The notes below the pieces were generated by a model. It ran no database searches. It had not been told where the DNA came from and worked only from the letters and a program-made list of their open reading frames with translations. From the NCBI GenBank assembly GCA_020433835.1, contig JAGRBY010000301.1, forward strand, positions 1 to 8,574: a DNA stretch of 8,574 nucleotides, in the 5' to 3' direction. Shown one piece after another: positions 1 to 6,120 of this stretch (its first letter is position 1; each line of letters starts with the position of its first letter). A program made the position numbers and the translations under genes. Source of the stretch: Anaerolineae bacterium. GTDB lineage: Bacteria; Chloroflexota; Anaerolineae; 4572-78; J111.

Positions 1-2737
1 TGGCTTGAGCTAACTCCGGGCCACCTCGACCCCAGGCGACCAATCCCAGCCCACCGAGAGCAAGAGAGATACCAAGCCGATTCTTGCTTTGGTTGAATAG
101 CTCCAGACTCTCGTTATAATAAGCTTCGGCATCGTCATATTCGCCCAAAACCCAGGCAATCAACCCCAATTTATCCAGACCGTTGGCGACGCCGTCCGGC
201 ATGTTGGCGGCGCGAAACAGTTCCAGGCTTTCCAGAAAATAGTGTTGGGCCATCGCAAACTCGCCGCTGCCTTCGCCGATAGAGCCGAGGCCGTAGAGGG
301 CTGTGGCTCGGTGGTACGATCCTTCAAAATGCTTGCTGAGGGCGATACTGGCTTCATAATGCTGTTGGGCTTCTTTGTAGCGCCCCTGATCGCGAGCGCT
401 GTCGCCCAGGTAAATAAGCGCCAAGGCGATTTCTTCAGCCAATTCGGGCGGTTGTAAAACACGCAAGGCATCATTGAGCAACCTTTCAGCTTTGTCGTAA
501 AGACCCAGCGCGCCACAGAATGCGCCTTGCCGCAGTTGGAGCCGGGCCAAAAGCTGTTTGTCATCGATTTGGGCCAGACCTTTAACGGCCTCAGCAAATG
601 CGTCTGCCCCCTCATAAAAGCGACTTCGCAGCCAGAAAAAATCGAATAACCCTTCAATACTCGGTTCGATGAGCGACTCTTGGCAGTGCGTTACCGCCCA
701 ACCCCAGCCGGCTCGAATATTATCAATGTCCGGGTTGATCTGGTTGAGCCAATCGAATCGATCAGCGTCCGAGGGTCGCGCATCACGGGCTTGTAGAAAT
801 TTGGCATAATAGCGACAATGCTTTTCCTGGGTTGTCATTTGTTCATCCGGCATTTGGGACAGCTTTTCAGCAGCAAATTGACGCACTAATTCGTGAACAT
901 CATACCGGCCTGAAGGCGATGCCCGCAGTAACGATTTGTCGACCAATGCAGTTAAGGTCAGCAAGGTGGCTCTAACCACTTCTTGGGCAGCATCACGACG
1001 AAAGCCGCCCCGAAAGATCGATAACTTCATAAAGACGGAGCGTTCAAGCTCCGTCAACATCTGCCACGAATAATCAAATACGGCCCGCATACTGCGATGG
1101 CGTTCCGGAATATTACGCTGTGAAGCGCTCAAAAAATCGAGGCTGCGCTCAATTTCTTGCACAACTTCCTCAATCGATAAGACCCGCAGCCAACTGGCAG
1201 CCAAGATTAAAGCCAACGGACAGCCATCGACCAGTTGGCTGATGCGAATAACGTGCGGCGCTTCGGCTTCGGTCAGTTGGAAATTCCCTCGAATTTGACG
1301 CACCTGCTCGCCAAAGAGATTTATAGCGCTGTAGTGCTCGAGGTTGGAGAGACTCGGCCGAGAAAGTTCAGAGGCACGGTGTTGGCTTTGCGGGTGAGCG
1401 AATGCCGGAAGCGTCGTCTTTCCTTTAGGAAAGTCAATAGGAAAGTCAAGCCCATCAAGCTCAATAACCCATTCTTCCATCAGGTTCAAACGTTCGCGCG
1501 AAGTGACCAGCAGTTTGATCCCCTTGGCTCGCTGCAGCAGATCGGGCAGCAACGTTGCTCCTTCTATCAAATGTTCAAAGTTGTCCAGGATAAAGAGGAT
1601 CTCTTTTTCACGTAGGTGCTGGCCCAACTGATCCATCTGATCGGCTGGGCCATAAAAGGAAAAGTCAATCGCATTGGCGATAGCCGCTGCTAAGAGATTC
1701 GATAGGGCATTGCTCCGCGTTGTTTCGGGAGTCGCAATGGGGGCCAGATTGACAACGTAAACCCCATCAAAAAACGTTACGCCGTCAAAGACCTTATCCG
1801 GCTTAAGATATTGCCTGGCTCCTTCCAACGATAGGCGCGTCTTGCCGATACCACCCGGCCCCACCAAGGTCAACAAACGGCAATCAGGATTATCCAGGTT
1901 GGCGGTCAGTTGATCCATCTCGCGCGTCCGGCCCACAAAGGTATTGGTCTGTGATGGTAAATTGTGCGTAATTGGTTTTTCAGTCTTTTTAATGCGTTCG
2001 TACAGAGCCTTGGTTTCGGCCGCCGGCTCGACGCCCAATTCTTCCACCAAGATACGAGAACACGTTTCATATTGGGCCAAGGCGGCACCACGTTGACCCG
2101 TTTGGGCCAGCAGCAGCATCAGTTCCCGGTGCGCCGTCTCGTGCCACGGCTCCAGAACCAGCAAGCGATTGGCATATTCTATCGCCACCAATGGGTCAGA
2201 CTTGGGCTGCTTGGTATAGTGCTCGATAAGGCTATTCAGGACCTGGACCATCAACGTTTGAAAATAATCGCGCTGCTCCGCACTCCACGCTTCGAATGAT
2301 AGCGCATTTTTAACGTAAAAGCCCGCCAGAAAATCACCCTTGTAGAAATTAACCGCCTGTCGCAGCGGGGCCAGGTCGCGCTCCAGATCCGTTGGCTCCA
2401 GATCCGTACTCCCTTCGACAGCCGCTTGAAAGAGGGTTACATCCACCTGATGCGGCGCATCCAGATTAAAAGCCACGCTTTGAGATTCGATAATAATGTA
2501 GGGTTCCACGGCTTTACGCAGCGTGCCCAGCGTCGTGGTTAGATTGCGCTTGGCTTTGGCTTCGGGCATATCACCCCACAGCAGTTCCACCAGGGTTTCC
2601 CGGCTGTGTGGTTGACCGGTCACAGCCAGATAGTACAGCAGCGCTTCAGCCTTGGCCGTAGCCAACCCGGTTAGCGGTCTTTCCCCCAATACAATCTGGG
2701 GTTTTCCCAGCAGATTGAGATGTAAGGTCTCAATCAT
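1..2737 (-). CDS. AfsR/SARP-like transcriptional regulator (BTAD + NB-ARC + TPR), C-terminus outside window
   Basis: The frame is open from ATG at 2737 to the window edge, giving 912 codons without a stop. It starts with AGGAGAC (2741-2747) three bases upstream. Domains seen: winged-helix/OmpR-like DNA-binding region (about residues 5-95); BTAD helical domain (about 97-252) with the typical EELGVEPAAET ending; STAND/NB-ARC ATPase (about 265-520) with VGR at 268-270, Walker A GPGGIGKT (293-300), Walker B LFILDN (D385), the TSRERL motif (412-417) and the GCPLAL motif (505-510); a winged-helix linker around 550-620; and TPRs from about 730 to the edge, with recurring A-x-x-x-Y/F-x-E/D-A-L/S patterns. 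In this family, ATP-dependent oligomerisation relieved through the TPR sensor controls transcription of nearby or distant genes. The target and ligand are unknown. The gene is divergent from whatever lies at 2878-3125. Two in-frame microduplications (TDLEP/TDLER and IDFP/IDFP) are present. The family call is firm; the specific role is not. Confidence 0.93.
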   Translation of the reverse strand, partial: MIETLHLNLLGKPQIVLGERPLTGLATAKAEALLYYLAVTGQPHSRETLVELLWGDMPEAKAKRNLTTTLGTLRKAVEPYIIIESQSVAFNLDAPHQVDVTLFQAAVEGSTDLEPTDLERDLAPLRQAVNFYKGDFLAGFYVKNALSFEAWSAEQRDYFQTLMVQVLNSLIEHYTKQPKSDPLVAIEYANRLLVLEPWHETAHRELMLLLAQTGQRGAALAQYETCSRILVEELGVEPAAETKALYERIKKTEKPITHNLPSQTNTFVGRTREMDQLTANLDNPDCRLLTLVGPGGIGKTRLSLEGARQYLKPDKVFDGVTFFDGVYVVNLAPIATPETTRSNALSNLLAAAIANAIDFSFYGPADQMDQLGQHLREKEILFILDNFEHLIEGATLLPDLLQRAKGIKLLVTSRERLNLMEEWVIELDGLDFPIDFPKGKTTLPAFAHPQSQHRASELSRPSLSNLEHYSAINLFGEQVRQIRGNFQLTEAEAPHVIRISQLVDGCPLALILAASWLRVLSIEEVVQEIERSLDFLSASQRNIPERHRSMRAVFDYSWQMLTELERSVFMKLSIFRGGFRRDAAQEVVRATLLTLTALVDKSLLRASPSGRYDVHELVRQFAAEKLSQMPDEQMTTQEKHCRYYAKFLQARDARPSDADRFDWLNQINPDIDNIRAGWGWAVTHCQESLIEPSIEGLFDFFWLRSRFYEGADAFAEAVKGLAQIDDKQLLARLQLRQGAFCGALGLYDKAERLLNDALRVLQPPELAEEIALALIYLGDSARDQGRYKEAQQHYEASIALSKHFEGSYHRATALYGLGSIGEGSGEFAMAQHYFLESLELFRAANMPDGVANGLDKLGLIAWVLGEYDDAEAYYNESLELFNQSKNRLGISLALGGLGLVAWGRGGPELAQA

Positions 2738-2740
2738 TGC

Positions 2741-2747
2741 GTCTCCT
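2741..2747 (-). promoter_or_regulatory. Ribosome binding site of the BTAD regulator
   Basis: Read on the minus strand the bases are AGGAGAC, directly upstream of the ATG at 2737. This supports that ATG as the start. Confidence 0.75.
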
Positions 2748-2825
2748 ATCATCAATCTTCAGCGAACAATCTGTACGTTATTTGCAACTTTTTTGCATTT
2801 TTTTGGGGCAGCCTGGTAAGGTCTA

Positions 2826-2877: not shown

Positions 2878-3125
2878 ATGACACGCTCAACCATAGATAT
2901 GCATGTTAGCCAATGGGGCCTTTTTTATGGAGAAATAATGTGGTTCTTTGGAAAGTGTGAAATGATAAAGACGATCTACATCCTCCCGATTTAGCGAATT
3001 TTATAAGATTCGCAGACGTCTTAAAAATTTTGGCTCACTATGGACTGCAAAGAGGTCATAGAAATGGAGACAAGGGGCATGCCCGAATGTCTTTAGCGGG
3101 CATCCAACAACTCTTAGGGCGATAG
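2878..3125 (+). pseudogene. Small unrecognised plus-strand gene, apparently broken by a one-base frameshift
   Basis: AAGGAG (2865-2870) sits seven bases before ATG 2878, an excellent ribosome binding site. The frame runs 38 codons (starts MTRSTIDMHV, includes WGLFYGEIMWFFGKCE) and ends at TAG 2992-2994. A second frame is open from 2961 to TAG 3123-3125 (54 codons) and reads as a plausible soluble sequence (DKDDLHPPDLANF, then FADVLKILAHYGLQRG). Adding one A in the short A run near 2959-2962 joins the two into a protein of about 82 residues. It could be a decayed gene, a sequencing error, or a genuine 38-residue peptide with chance open frame after it. I recognise no family. It is transcribed away from the BTAD regulator, so it could be a target of that regulator, but nothing proves this. 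A 7-bp inverted repeat lies inside the second half (3079-3103). Confidence 0.35.
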
Positions 3126-3132
3126 ATTCCCG

Positions 3133-3869
3133 CTAAACTTGTCCTCGCGTAGGCGGGGAAACATGCGGACATGACAGCGGCCAGCGTTCCTCTTCGTAAC
3201 CTATAGAGAGCCAAAATTTTTTCCCCGCTTCCAATAGAAAAATAGAGTCGGGGAATATTTTTTCACGAATTTCTATAGGTAAACGCCGAGTCGATCCAAT
3301 TTTTCCAACGAATCCTACAAGACTCGCCAATTCTTTCAAATTATTTCCAACGATCCTATAGGAATCTGCCAACTCGTTCTTAGAGGATCGCCGAATCCTA
3401 TAGGAATCTGTGGATCTCTTTCTTGACCTTCATCGAATCCTATAGGAATCTGCCGACTCGTTCTTAGAGGATGGTCGAATCCTATAGGAATCTGGGAATC
3501 TTTTTCTCGACCTTCGTCGAATCCTATAGGAATCTGCCGATCTCTTTCTTGACCTTCGCCGAATCCTATAGGAATCTGCCGATCTTTTTCTCGACCCCCG
3601 CCGAATCCTATAGGAATCTGTGGATCTCTTTCTTGACCTTCATCGAATCCTATAGGAATCTGCGGATCTTTTTCTCGACCCCCGCCGAATCCAATAGCAA
3701 AAGGCGAATCCCTTGCCGGGGATTGGCGTGATCCAATCAAAACACCGGAGTCTTTGAGACGCATGCAGTATGAGACAAAGCATACTTTAACAGCCATCCA
3801 TTGGCCGTGCCAACGACGAAACGATGGTTGCAAAATTTCAACAAACAAACGCACCATCCTACTCGTCAA
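3133..3869 (-). pseudogene. Possible 14-residue-repeat protein on the minus strand of the array, with one frameshift
   Basis: From TTG 3869 (ATGs inside at 3857, 3797 and 3764) the minus frame is open through the whole array, giving repeats such as QIPIGFDEGQERDP and QIPIGFGGGREKDR. It ends after QIPIGSLEII at 3336. The unit at 3351 lacks one base (CGATCC instead of CGAATCC); restoring it continues the frame to a stop at 3133. That stretch still shows repeat-like segments: LVGFVGKIGSTR, LPIEIREKIFPDS, LSIGYEEERW. The edge units at 3733 and 3691 give GVLIGSRQSPARDS and FAIGFGGGREKDP, so I-G-[FSY] and charged positions persist where the DNA has diverged. The plus strand has stops in the left flank. 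Against coding: differences between central units are largely nonsynonymous, and a period divisible by three keeps frames open automatically. It begins about 20 bp after the pentapeptide gene stop. No family is recognised. Confidence 0.35.
3195..3769. repeat. 42-bp tandem repeat array with palindromic core TCCTATAGGA
   Basis: The core CCTATAGG starts at 3355, 3397, 3439, 3481, 3523, 3565, 3607 and 3649, an exact 42-bp period. Units at 3397-3649 share the invariant 19-mer CGAATCCTATAGGAATCTG. It is followed by about 23 bp of three recurring types: A ends TCTTGACCTTC, B ends TCTCGACC with TTC or CCC, and C contains CGTTCTTAGAGGAT. The order left to right is C A C B A B A B. The units at 3397 and 3649 are of one type, while 3397 and 3607 are identical over 42 bp. 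Decayed units continue in register on the right (core positions 3691 and 3733) and on the left (about 3314, 3272, 3231, 3200, with small indels). The 5-bp GAATC flanks the CTATAG palindrome as a direct repeat. The period is 14 codons and also four turns of B-DNA. The array is not CRISPR, because the variable parts recur. Confidence 0.95.
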
Positions 3870-3896
3870 CCAGCCATCCTACGCACCATCCTACTC
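3851..3896. repeat. Short direct repeats GCACCATCCTACTC
   Basis: The 14-mer occurs at 3851-3864 and 3883-3896, with a partial third copy (CCATCCTAC) at 3874-3882 between them. The right copy overlaps the stop codon of the pentapeptide gene. On the minus strand each copy reads GTAGGATGG, which resembles a Shine-Dalgarno and could serve the TTG start at 3869. The stretch 3770-3850 shows nothing else I can support. Confidence 0.6.
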
Positions 3897-4493
3897 ATGC
3901 AAAACAATATCCAGACTATACAGCAGCGACATCGCCTCCGGCAATGAAAATTTGGTACCTTTAAGCCGATTGGCATCCGCGGCGATAGTGTAGTTGACGG
4001 CTCCCGTAAAATCGGCGCTCGTTAGATTGGTATTATGGAAGCGGCTGTTCGTAAAATCGGTCTTGAGACACTGGGCTTCGGTCAGATCGGCCTCGGCAAA
4101 ATCAACCTCTTTGGCGATGCAGTCAACAAACTTGACCTCCTTTAGATTCAAGCCAAAGAACGAGCCATAATTGAGCACGCAACGGATGAAGTCGATGGTT
4201 TTGAGAAAGCTGCGTTGATGCCAATTGGCTTCCGTCCAATTGATGCCGATCAACTGCGAGTCTTGAAACGTGGTTGTTGTAAAGATGCAGTTCTCAACCC
4301 GAACCAGACTTAAATCGGAGCCTTGAAACGTACAATCGCGAAAACGACAGTTGACAAAGGCCGTTTCGCGAAAGGTACAATCGACAAACGTACATTCATC
4401 GAATTCTTTGTCGATGATTTCGGCGTTTTGGTAACTTAAACCTTTGAACTGTTGAGCATTGAATTCTATCTCTGTGGTTAGGAATCGATCCAT
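3891..4493 (-). CDS. Pentapeptide-repeat protein, Qnr-like architecture, 200 aa
   Basis: Starting at ATG 4493 (MDRFLTTEIEF) the protein has 200 residues. Every fifth residue is a central Phe or Leu: positions 31, 36, 41, 46, 51, 56, 61 and again 71, 76, 81, then after an irregular Trp-rich stretch (82-101) at 102, 107, 112, 117, 122, 132, 137, 147, 152, 157 and 162. This predicts a right-handed quadrilateral beta-helix in two blocks, as in Qnr/MfpA-type proteins. The tail (FSLPEAMSLLYSLDIVL, about 182-198) resembles the C-terminal dimerisation helix region of Qnr proteins. The first block is Cys-rich (CTF, DCTF, NCRF). No signal peptide is visible, so it is probably cytoplasmic. Known Qnr/MfpA members mimic DNA and bind gyrase, but most pentapeptide proteins have no known function; quinolone protection is not claimed here. 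The longer frame to TTG 4547 runs into the inverted-repeat element and was not chosen. AAAGGA lies about 15 bases upstream of the chosen ATG, longer spacing than usual. Confidence 0.88.
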   Translation of the reverse strand: MDRFLTTEIEFNAQQFKGLSYQNAEIIDKEFDECTFVDCTFRETAFVNCRFRDCTFQGSDLSLVRVENCIFTTTTFQDSQLIGINWTEANWHQRSFLKTIDFIRCVLNYGSFFGLNLKEVKFVDCIAKEVDFAEADLTEAQCLKTDFTNSRFHNTNLTSADFTGAVNYTIAADANRLKGTKFSLPEAMSLLYSLDIVLHE

Positions 4494-4512
4494 TTTGATC
4501 GAGAATTGTCCT

Positions 4513-4578
4513 TTCAATGAATAAACCGTATGAGTTACGCAGTTCAAAAGGTGACAGTCACTTCAATGCGATAAACCG
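4513..4578. repeat. Near-duplicate TTCAATG-ATAAACCG, two copies
   Basis: TTCAATGAATAAACCG (4513-4528) and TTCAATGCGATAAACCG (4562-4578) differ by one substitution and one indel. The first lies just upstream of the pentapeptide ATG. The second begins inside the left arm of the inverted-repeat element. This suggests a local duplication tied to insertion of, or recombination at, the element. Confidence 0.5.
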
Positions 4579-4631
4579 ACTTTTTTGGGCCAAATGGACA
4601 CGCATTTTAATAAAAAAGTGACTGTCACCTT
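4548..4631. mobile_element. 84-bp REP/MITE-like element with perfect 16-bp inverted ends
   Basis: AAGGTGACAGTCACTT at 4548-4563 is matched by its exact reverse complement at 4616-4631. Each arm contains its own odd palindrome GTGAC-A-GTCAC. A second inner pair, AATGCG (4565-4570) and CGCATT (4601-4606), extends the fold. CAA flanks the element on both sides (4545-4547, 4632-4634), a possible 3-bp target duplication. It contains no gene. It begins 13 bp after the ATPase stop codon, so as RNA it could form a long hairpin between the ATPase and pentapeptide genes and affect mRNA ends. The palindromic arms in opposite orientation resemble REP pairs mobilised by RAYT/Y1-type transposases. That assignment is inference, as no transposase is in the window. 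Confidence 0.7.
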
Positions 4632-4644
4632 CAACGACCCGATC

Positions 4645-6120
4645 TTAATAGGCCTTGCCCAGAGTGATATTCAATCCATCCCGGTAAAGAATCGGGATCT
4701 TATAGGACTCTTTCGTCTGTTCGAAAAAGCCGATATCGATTAAGATTTTGGCAAACGATTTCGCTTTCAGCTTATCGACCCCAAACAGTTCGGCAATCGA
4801 GTCATCATTGTGTTCCGCTTTGCTATCGCGAAAGGCTTCGATAAGCACTGCAACATCACGACTGGCTTCGGCCAAAAGGGTATCTTCGAGCCGATCATGA
4901 CTGAGCCGGGTGAGGGCGCGTTTGATCGCTTCCGGTTCAATAAGGGGTAATCTATCGACATAGACTCGCGGCTGGCGCTGCTCCCGGCGAAGCTGTTCCT
5001 CCTTGGCCTTGTTGACCAGATCGATCAAATTTCGAGGCGGGATAGCGCCGTTCCCGTCTTTGGTATGGGATATCATCCAGTTCCAGGTTGTGGACCGCCG
5101 TTCGCCGACATCGACTTGTTCGGGGAAAATGAAATCGAACAACTGCTCATTTAAGACATCCGGCCGGTCAACCAGGGCTAAAAATGCCTTGTTTTCGCGC
5201 AGTCGCCGGCACAACATAACCAATAAATCTTCTTTGTCCCAAATTATCTCCCGTTTGCGGGCGTTAATGTGGGTCAGATTAACAAATCGGTTCTGCGTAA
5301 TCTTACGAAACAAATCTTTACGCACAAATAACTTTAACTTTATACGCTCAAAAGCCAGCAAGTCCAGATAAGTTCTAAATAAGGCCCGCAGCGCCGGCAT
5401 CTCGACATCGGGAAAACCGACAAAGGCTTCATCCAAACGGTCGAGGGCAATCCAAATGGTGATGTCATTCTCTGCTAAAGACGCATTCAAAAGATAGAGC
5501 GCATCATCGTGGAGAATAAAGTCGGACGAAAAGTCGGCAACTTTGGGTACAGGGTCTTCGAACTCAATTTTGGGTGTTACAACGGGGATGCCGCTAATAT
5601 CGAAGGTTACATCGATGCCGGCGGCTTTGGGGTTGGTGAAGCGCTGTACCCACTGCGTAAGCCGTGAAAAGATAGTAACCGGCCTATCATCTTGGCTGCG
5701 CAAACCAGTTTGAGCGAGCAAGTTGCTCAGTTTTTGGGTATTTTCCAAATACACACCATCACATAGTTGTAACAACCAATTACCAACCAATGACAGAATA
5801 TACATTTTCCAAATGGCGCTATACTGGCCTTCGTCGAGCGGCCCGGTATACGCCAGGCGTTGAAATATGGGATTGCCCGAGGGATTAAAAGCGGTAATCA
5901 GTTCGACATTGGCGAGTTCGTTGAACTCGGTATAGCGATGATGCAGGTAGCGGTAGAGGGCAGTTTTGCCGGTGCCTTTGTCGCCGGCGATGATGTCGGC
6001 TTTGTCTTCTATCAAAGCCCGAAAGATGTCGGTTTCTACAAAATAATTCTTCAACTGGTTATCAAACTCTGCAACGGAGTTACCCACCTCGATGGTGTTT
6101 AATATCTCTTGCACTTTCAT
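4645..6120 (-). CDS. P-loop ATPase, Sll1717-family-like, possible C-terminal winged helix, 491 aa
   Basis: ATG 6120 is preceded by AAAGGA (6128-6133) at seven-base spacing. The N-terminal segment ends in the first strand of the nucleotide fold, followed by Walker A GDKGTGKT (46-53, K52). A Walker B strand IWIALDRLDEAF (222-233) carries D227 with D230/E231 following. An arginine-bearing IPPRNLIDLVNKA segment (360-372) fits a sensor-2-like position. Residues about 415-485 read as a helical region plus a helix-turn-helix and wing (SIAELFGVDKLKAKSF, then GFFEQTKESYKIP). This architecture matches the uncharacterised cyanobacterial and Chloroflexota group named after Sll1717; the naming is from memory and not searched. 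No membrane segments or signal peptide are seen. Such ATPases are generally thought to be STAND/KAP-like switches, but the substrate and partner are unknown. It is 142 bp downstream of the ABC genes and 151 bp upstream of the pentapeptide gene, all on the same strand. Confidence 0.85.
   Translation of the reverse strand: MKVQEILNTIEVGNSVAEFDNQLKNYFVETDIFRALIEDKADIIAGDKGTGKTALYRYLHHRYTEFNELANVELITAFNPSGNPIFQRLAYTGPLDEGQYSAIWKMYILSLVGNWLLQLCDGVYLENTQKLSNLLAQTGLRSQDDRPVTIFSRLTQWVQRFTNPKAAGIDVTFDISGIPVVTPKIEFEDPVPKVADFSSDFILHDDALYLLNASLAENDITIWIALDRLDEAFVGFPDVEMPALRALFRTYLDLLAFERIKLKLFVRKDLFRKITQNRFVNLTHINARKREIIWDKEDLLVMLCRRLRENKAFLALVDRPDVLNEQLFDFIFPEQVDVGERRSTTWNWMISHTKDGNGAIPPRNLIDLVNKAKEEQLRREQRQPRVYVDRLPLIEPEAIKRALTRLSHDRLEDTLLAEASRDVAVLIEAFRDSKAEHNDDSIAELFGVDKLKAKSFAKILIDIGFFEQTKESYKIPILYRDGLNITLGKAY

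Follow-up and report, generated by a model that had tools for sequence, protein, structure and literature searches.

A 42-bp palindrome array behind a recurring leader in an Anaerolineae genome: a possible BOX-like modular element in helical register

The locus and its surroundings

The window, i.e., the whole 8,574-nucleotide stretch of DNA analyzed here, carries a tandem array of palindromes between two genes of the minus strand. They encode a SARP-like regulator with BTAD, NB-ARC and TPR regions (positions 2–2755; cut by the window end) and a pentapeptide-repeat protein (3891–4547). From left to right, the intergenic region contains a solitary palindrome GCGAATTTTATAAGATTCGC (2994–3013, plus strand), an insertion-like stretch, a leader and the array body. 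An open frame of 177 aa (3336–3869, minus strand) runs through the array and is read as a by-product of a unit length divisible by three rather than as a gene.

On the other side of the pentapeptide-repeat gene, a perfect 16-nt inverted repeat AAGGTGACAGTCACTT lies between two genes, its arms (4548–4563 and 4616–4631) being 52 nt apart. The gene that follows (4645–6120) encodes a P-loop ATPase-like protein of 491 aa, the sole Pfam match of which is a below-cut-off similarity to the ORC-CDC6-like family.

Structure of the array body

The array body (3350–3704, plus strand) comprises eight 42-bp units, each containing the palindrome TCCTATAGGA (first base of the centers from 3357 to 3651), followed by one more unit, decayed, that starts at 3686. 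The eight palindromes are exact, advance in 42-bp steps from 3354 to 3648, and are the only exact occurrences of TCCTATAGGA in the whole window (n = 8). A longer 19-mer, CGAATCCTATAGGAATCTG, is repeated exactly seven times at the same step (3392, 3434, 3476, 3518, 3560, 3602 and 3644; span 3392–3662), and an eighth copy at 3350 has three mismatches with TCCTATAGGA intact. The claim of the first-pass annotation that eight palindromes are spaced at exactly 42 bp is thus borne out, as is its description of an invariant 19-bp block beside a variable 23-bp linker: across the seven central units none of the 19 core columns varies, against 17 of the 23 linker columns (Fisher p = 4.8e-7). The order of the three recurring linker types, C A C B A B A B, also reads as described from 3350 onward.

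Tandem Repeats Finder reports a period of 42 over 3353–3697 with a score of 345. Periods of 84 and 126 score higher (437 and 441, respectively), which makes duplication of several units at a time likely. The unit types probably arose by gene conversion, as suggested earlier, or by slippage. Decay had been proposed for both edges of the array. The right edge does look decayed, the unit from 3686 having five mismatches; the left edge is instead a leader of 41/42-bp modules that recur at other loci, as detailed below.

Orthologous locus and dispersed family in a related genome

Species genomes were scanned for two copies of TCCTATAGGA lying 28–58 bp apart (start to start), which returned 67 stretches. 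Two of them, L040 and L074, belong to the family of the window by sequence, and both come from G001, the fragmented 9.8-Mb metagenome-assembled genome 'Anaerolineae bacterium HKST-UBA12' of an Anaerolineae relative. In all but a few of the remaining 65 stretches and of eight viral stretches, the TCCTATAGGA pairs were compared by sequence and judged not to be this element.

L040 (also retrieved as L095; contig C299) is the orthologous locus, with the same two neighbors, the same leader and 42-bp units with different linkers. The SARP-like proteins of the two genomes (window 2–2755 and L095 889–4077) share 495 of 892 residues, and the adjoining pentapeptide proteins 174 of 200. L074 is a second array adjoining a redoxin-like gene, so named from our reading of its sequence. 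Absence of the array from relatives, or a spacing not near 42 bp, had been named beforehand as evidence against phased binding; the idea survived, since the ortholog carries the array at a 42-bp step.

Pattern, BLAST and profile searches collectively locate the family on nine G001 contigs (C299, C442, C466, C585, C918, C614, C297, C99 and C428). Besides the ortholog, these comprise eight further loci, likewise built of 41/42-bp modules. Contig C442 ends before any leader is reached, and C428 contains a leader and little more. The genes beside these loci differ and are arranged in tandem, convergently or divergently. Chains range from 2 to 16 modules in ten elements, so the internal units are variable in number. 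A conserved 3′ end module, comparable to boxC of BOX elements, was not found in the five elements compared, the right ends being unalignable between loci except for the ortholog pair. At L107, a 130-bp repeat in two copies (97% match; positions 1–255) occupies the contig start and adjoins an array of this family.

The leader and the left side of the array

When the window is aligned with C299, C466 and C585, the left edge proves to be part of a common stretch containing CCAATTTTTCCAACGAATCYTACAAGACTCGCCAATTCTTTCAAAT. The leader (3225–3349, outer boundary approximate, plus strand) is composed of modules of 41, 42 and 41 bp and contains CCAATTTTTCCAACGAATCCTACAAGACTCGCCAATTCTTTCAAAT, which is common to other loci. 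Leaders of C918 and C614 are recognizably similar, but possess other palindromes. In total, the same leader is present on eight contigs of G001 in addition to the window, i.e., as an end module at several unrelated places, and a decayed array was therefore rejected as an explanation of about 3225–3349.

Between the window and the ortholog, 107 of 111 leader bases agree when a composite of the two C299 copies is used, the choice of copy biasing this figure toward conservation, and 96 of 111 do so when only the first copy is used. For four-fold degenerate sites the agreement is 50 of 66 in the pentapeptide gene and 106 of 238 in the SARP gene; relative to the pentapeptide sites, the first copy by itself shows no significant excess of conservation (p = 0.10). 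Over the entire intergenic stretch, 722 of 909 aligned positions agree, with 284 gap columns.

The outlying GCGAATTTTATAAGATTCGC is a further TATA-centered palindrome, corresponding to the first module of the chain in C299. In the window it is separated from the leader by an insertion-like stretch of ~199 bp (3023–3221), which possesses 33-nt inverted ends (82% complementary) and has no counterpart in the G001 ortholog.

Module length and palindrome covariation

Segmentation of the family on TATA-centered palindromes, a method which itself favors a spacing of 42, gave ten chains with 87 spacings: 66 of 42 bp, 20 of 41 bp and one of 43 bp (86/87 at 41 or 42). With the spacing left free between 30 and 54 bp, 63 of 119 spacings fell at 41 or 42, compared with 100 of 1232 in shuffled elements. 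For every one of the ten elements the chain score was higher than in any of its ten shuffles, in C428 barely (8.0 vs 7.5). Adjacent modules share on average 60% identity (86 pairs) at a nearly constant spacing, and length is therefore kept better than sequence.

Body modules in rigid 42-bp phase were used for the analysis of covariation, comprising 26 unique T-type, 15 G-type and 10 D-type modules. The palindrome differs between the three types, yet remains largely paired. Pair 7–14 is C-G in 21/26 T-type modules and G-C in 15/15 G-type and 8/10 D-type modules, and pairs 4–17 and 3–18 are changed on both sides between types, these being few change events, each common to many modules. Pair 5–16 is an A·A mismatch in 20/26 T-type modules and T-A in 13/15 G-type modules. 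Two pairs are poorly kept: 8–13 (standard in 4/15 G-type and 3/10 D-type modules) and 6–15 (2/15 and 4/10, respectively). Mean pairing at the palindrome center is 0.69, 0.68 and 0.63 for the three types, the best of 42 centers in each, against means of 0.26, 0.29 and 0.29 over all centers. Two-sided changes of this kind would suit a DNA-bound dimeric protein and a hairpin equally well, and wobble pairs single out neither strand.

Other arrays of the same genome share a period

An unselected sample of G001 was assembled from 99 stretches (1,218,969 bases; 1.22 Mb) picked by contig number with repeats disregarded; the C450 stretch, fetched for its array, was excluded. Tandem Repeats Finder produced 46 rows with a period of at least 25, 30 of which were set aside by a coding filter based on open-frame length and partly on judgment by eye. 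The 16 rows kept as non-coding represent 15 arrays, as two overlapping rows of L244 were counted once. Nine of these 15 arrays have a base period of 41–43, the shorter period being counted where a 41- or 42-bp row was paired with a 123-bp row; four have periods of 62, 82, 105 and 123, and two (27 and 28) do not fit. At L244 the 42-bp signal is weak (autocorrelation excess of 0.08 at lag 42 and 0.32 at 123).

The filter leaves some latitude: L213:13988 (109 aa) and L237:12072 (171 aa) were set aside despite frames shorter than that of the retained L244 (187 aa), and their inclusion changes the count to 9 of 17. Without any coding filter, 11 of 46 rows have the period, compared with 2 of 56 in a reference set that is not random, most of it having been fetched for TCCTATAGGA pairs (p = 0.003); the count becomes 12 if L242:15554, with periods of 21, 42 and 63 inside a long frame, is included. 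Collapsed to families according to our own grouping, 5 of 10 are at 41–43. A p-value of 5e-11 for the common period is obtained under a crude uniform null of 25–130 bp. From the array density, roughly 70–120 arrays are estimated for the genome.

The unit sequences of most families resemble each other no more than expected by chance, some pairs scoring above 99% of shuffles; near-equal spacing in arrays of different sequence hints that the spacing itself matters. Averaged over 20 arrays, both selected and unselected, the autocorrelation excess at lags 12–37 has just two conspicuous values, 0.056 at lag 20 and 0.066 at lag 21, followed by 0.016. Most of this signal is due to family B and two others, and the window array shows none at lag 21. 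Family B consists of 20- and 21-bp half-units in mixed order. BLAST found 12 matches to it on 11 G001 contigs, whereas 24 further genomes of the order gave no match. Of the eight loci retrieved, seven have a 41-bp period. Higher-order multiples of 82, 84, 123 and 126 were also seen among the arrays.

A strong palindrome is not supported as a feature of all arrays (4/14 units with p ≤ 0.05), and a common binder would therefore not read a palindrome. Predicted curvature, calculated with dinucleotide parameters, is not supported as a common property either (1/14 units with p ≤ 0.05).

Distribution beyond G001

A model of the leader matched only G001 among 100 relatives, 25 genomes of its order and 396 genomes sampled from its class; in the last set, 13 candidates were scored per genome listed under stricter filters, so that weak copies could escape. 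BLAST with the element of the window agrees, finding G001 only among the 100 relatives. Four TATA motifs at exactly 42 bp occur in 2 of the 396 class genomes, namely G001 (nine forward matches) and G098 (two, with a different unit), and a reversed control of this pattern occurs in four, G001 included. The exact leader pattern has no match in viral contigs, and the array has none in plasmids.

Comparison with known repeat systems

Plasmid iterons and centromere repeats consist of binding sites that are directly repeated in helical register, and the array resembles iterons and parS sites in being a phased series of direct repeats of one site. Unlike iterons and centromere repeats, it belongs to many dispersed loci and changes in sequence from locus to locus, and the Pfam matches of the seven window frames scanned include no initiator or partition protein apart from the below-cut-off ORC-CDC6-like one. 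Bacterial intergenic minisatellites (VNTR loci) consist of tandem intergenic units whose copy number varies between related loci and which are homogenized within arrays. The element departs from them in its recurring leader modules, in the invariant palindrome beside variable linkers and in a unit length common to several families.

Like REP sequences and BIMEs (PMC3733652), the element provides short palindromic repeats between genes, often clustered and diversifying into subfamilies. REP elements require a GTAG or CGTC tag, the GTAG types being associated with Y1 transposases (PMC3733652). On either strand of 3350–3704, GTAG occurs zero times and CGTC once. In contrast to these elements, the array lacks a conserved tag, is arranged head-to-tail at a fixed step and has no match to the Y1 loci of G001.

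The nearest counterpart in layout is found in the BOX elements of Streptococcus (boxA-boxB(n)-boxC), for which predicted stem-loops and incidental reading frames are described (PMC3049150). Both are small dispersed intergenic elements with a distinct end module followed by variable tandem units of several module types, and the window element likewise possesses predicted stem-loops and incidental open frames (PMC3049150). Differences from BOX include the 42-bp unit, the 41/42-bp leader modules, the TATA-centered palindrome, the lack of a clear 3′ end module and the unit length shared with other arrays of G001. Within the literature covered, subscription journals being mostly outside it, we recognized no report of this element or of a fixed helical unit length in bacterial intergenic arrays.

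Interpretation and alternative explanations

The leader, the tandem units, their dispersal in the relative and the common module length form the ground on which we read the array as the body of a BOX-like modular element, dispersed in the genome and apparently non-coding, that is held in helical register and is probably a platform for a putative oligomerizing protein. We assign this reading a probability of roughly 0.4. The ruler is read as helical register because 41–43 bp would correspond to about four turns and 20–21 bp to about two; a putative DNA-coating or oligomerizing protein appears the likeliest cause, since spacing and core persist while linkers drift.

The proposed mechanism would operate within one lineage of Chloroflexota (Anaerolineae), whose element consists of a leader followed by a variable number of 42-bp units. 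These units would multiply and become homogenized through slippage or unequal exchange, as the 84- and 126-bp periods and the recurring unit types suggest. The modules and the other arrays would retain a step close to four turns of the helix, which some families build from a pair of 20–21-bp half-units, because function depends on a single face of the DNA. Most probably, a putative oligomerizing or architectural protein would assemble on the array, the TATA-centered palindrome being its candidate sequence-specific site in this family.

Selection on DNA, already suspected in the first-pass annotation, is supported by the core (0/19 variable columns) and by two-sided changes of palindrome pairs, with weaker support from the similarity of the leader in the two species. 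The associated idea of phased binding is strengthened by the step of the ortholog, the 41/42-bp modules and the other arrays at 41–43 bp; its more specific form, an iteron, parS or operator identity, is unsupported given the dispersal, the changing palindrome and the lack of a plasmid match.

A somewhat less likely alternative is a satellite, neutral or selfish, whose unit length is set by a mutational ruler: an enzyme or a replication process of this lineage duplicates segments of ~20.5 or 41 bp of any sequence, and arrays grow, spread and decay unbound. It would account for a common period among arrays with clearly different units, the mixed 20- and 21-bp units of family B, the higher-order multiples of 82, 84, 123 and 126, the decaying right edge of the window array and the differing neighbor genes in tandem, convergent and divergent arrangement. 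Taken alone, however, it leaves unexplained the invariant core beside variable linkers, the two-sided palindrome changes and a module length held at 60% identity between adjacent modules.

We consider it unlikely that the modules act as RNA, i.e., as a transcribed hairpin chain protecting or cleaving neighboring transcripts, as has been suggested for BOX elements. The element does fold better than dinucleotide shuffles (z of -5.6 for the plus and -6.0 for the minus strand; 0/100 shuffles as good), one unit forms two predicted hairpins on the minus strand (-9.6 kcal/mol; -4.1 on the plus strand), and palindrome pairs change on both sides. However, tandem palindromes fold well by construction, the wobble pairs favor neither strand, no Rfam match reaches the gathering score in the window, and promoter-like sites are at chance level (3 found, 3.0 expected). 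An RNA role would also leave the common period unexplained in families whose units form no clear hairpin.

A replicon-type site (iterons, a parS-like centromere) or an operator array for one regulator, such as the product of the adjacent SARP gene, is very improbable. A helically phased series of directly repeated copies of a single palindromic site, next to the gene of a regulator, would suit it, yet nine dispersed loci in G001 have different neighbors and several palindrome sequences, no plasmid match is found, and the Pfam matches of seven window frames include no replication or partition gene except the weak ORC-CDC6-like one at 4645–6120.

Least credible of all is a coding repeat, a protein with 14-residue repeats: open frames do cross the array on both strands, as they do some G001 arrays, but 41-bp modules and 41-bp arrays break the frame, synonymous changes are absent from the core across the seven units, the repeats give different translations in different subfamilies, the main frame has no Pfam family, and two such frames have no protein relatives (E ≤ 0.001 and E ≤ 1), the 41-bp modules and the missing relatives being the grounds of its rejection. 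A CRISPR array was rejected as well, because the linkers recur as three types rather than as non-repeated spacers; no cas families are among the Pfam matches of seven frames within the window.

A Y1 transposase was considered as a mobilizer and rejected, since a BLAST comparison of eight array sequences with the three Y1 loci of G001 gave no hit. Three Y1 matches each are also present in the relatives G006 and G011 of the same order, in 326 kb of which no arrays of 41–43 bp were found. One of the G001 Y1 genes (L263 1495–1986) is flanked by 91-bp direct repeats of its own, and a 41-bp array with a unit unlike that of the window (L263 730–941; 5.2 copies, 93% match) lies ~550 bp before it. Around another Y1 match, a 1.97-kb stretch contains three palindromic 86-nt repeats, 118 and 104 nt apart (L260 541–848).

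Returning to the reading of an element in helical register, we tentatively propose a broader form of it. One lineage of Chloroflexota may harbor an estimated 70–120 intergenic arrays of several families with a common ruler of 20–21 or 41–43 bp, whose formation or function would be set by helical register and not by sequence. Such arrays might represent a bacterial counterpart of satellite DNA, the unit being set by whatever coats or copies it, and the TCCTATAGGA array would be a member in which the palindrome is read as well. If real, a common ruler makes it testable why some bacterial intergenic repeats hold a fixed unit length: insertions of half a turn should abolish binding or function, and insertions of whole turns should not. 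It would also point to a new DNA-coating or unit-copying system of one lineage.

Palindrome arrays in other taxa

Among loci preselected for spacings of 28–58 bp, intergenic-looking palindrome arrays with other periods were noted as well. A period of 52 is seen in three genera of Bacillaceae (L045 913–1734, L075 402–974, L020 2270–2681 and L025 1477–1679), and a period of 51 in Bifidobacterium santillanense (L018 1017–1244, L019 4186–4574 and L055 3659–4130), both corresponding to about five helical turns. Compared with each other, the Bacillaceae units score 9, 13 and 14 against a 95% shuffle level of 11, i.e., at or slightly above the scores of shuffles.
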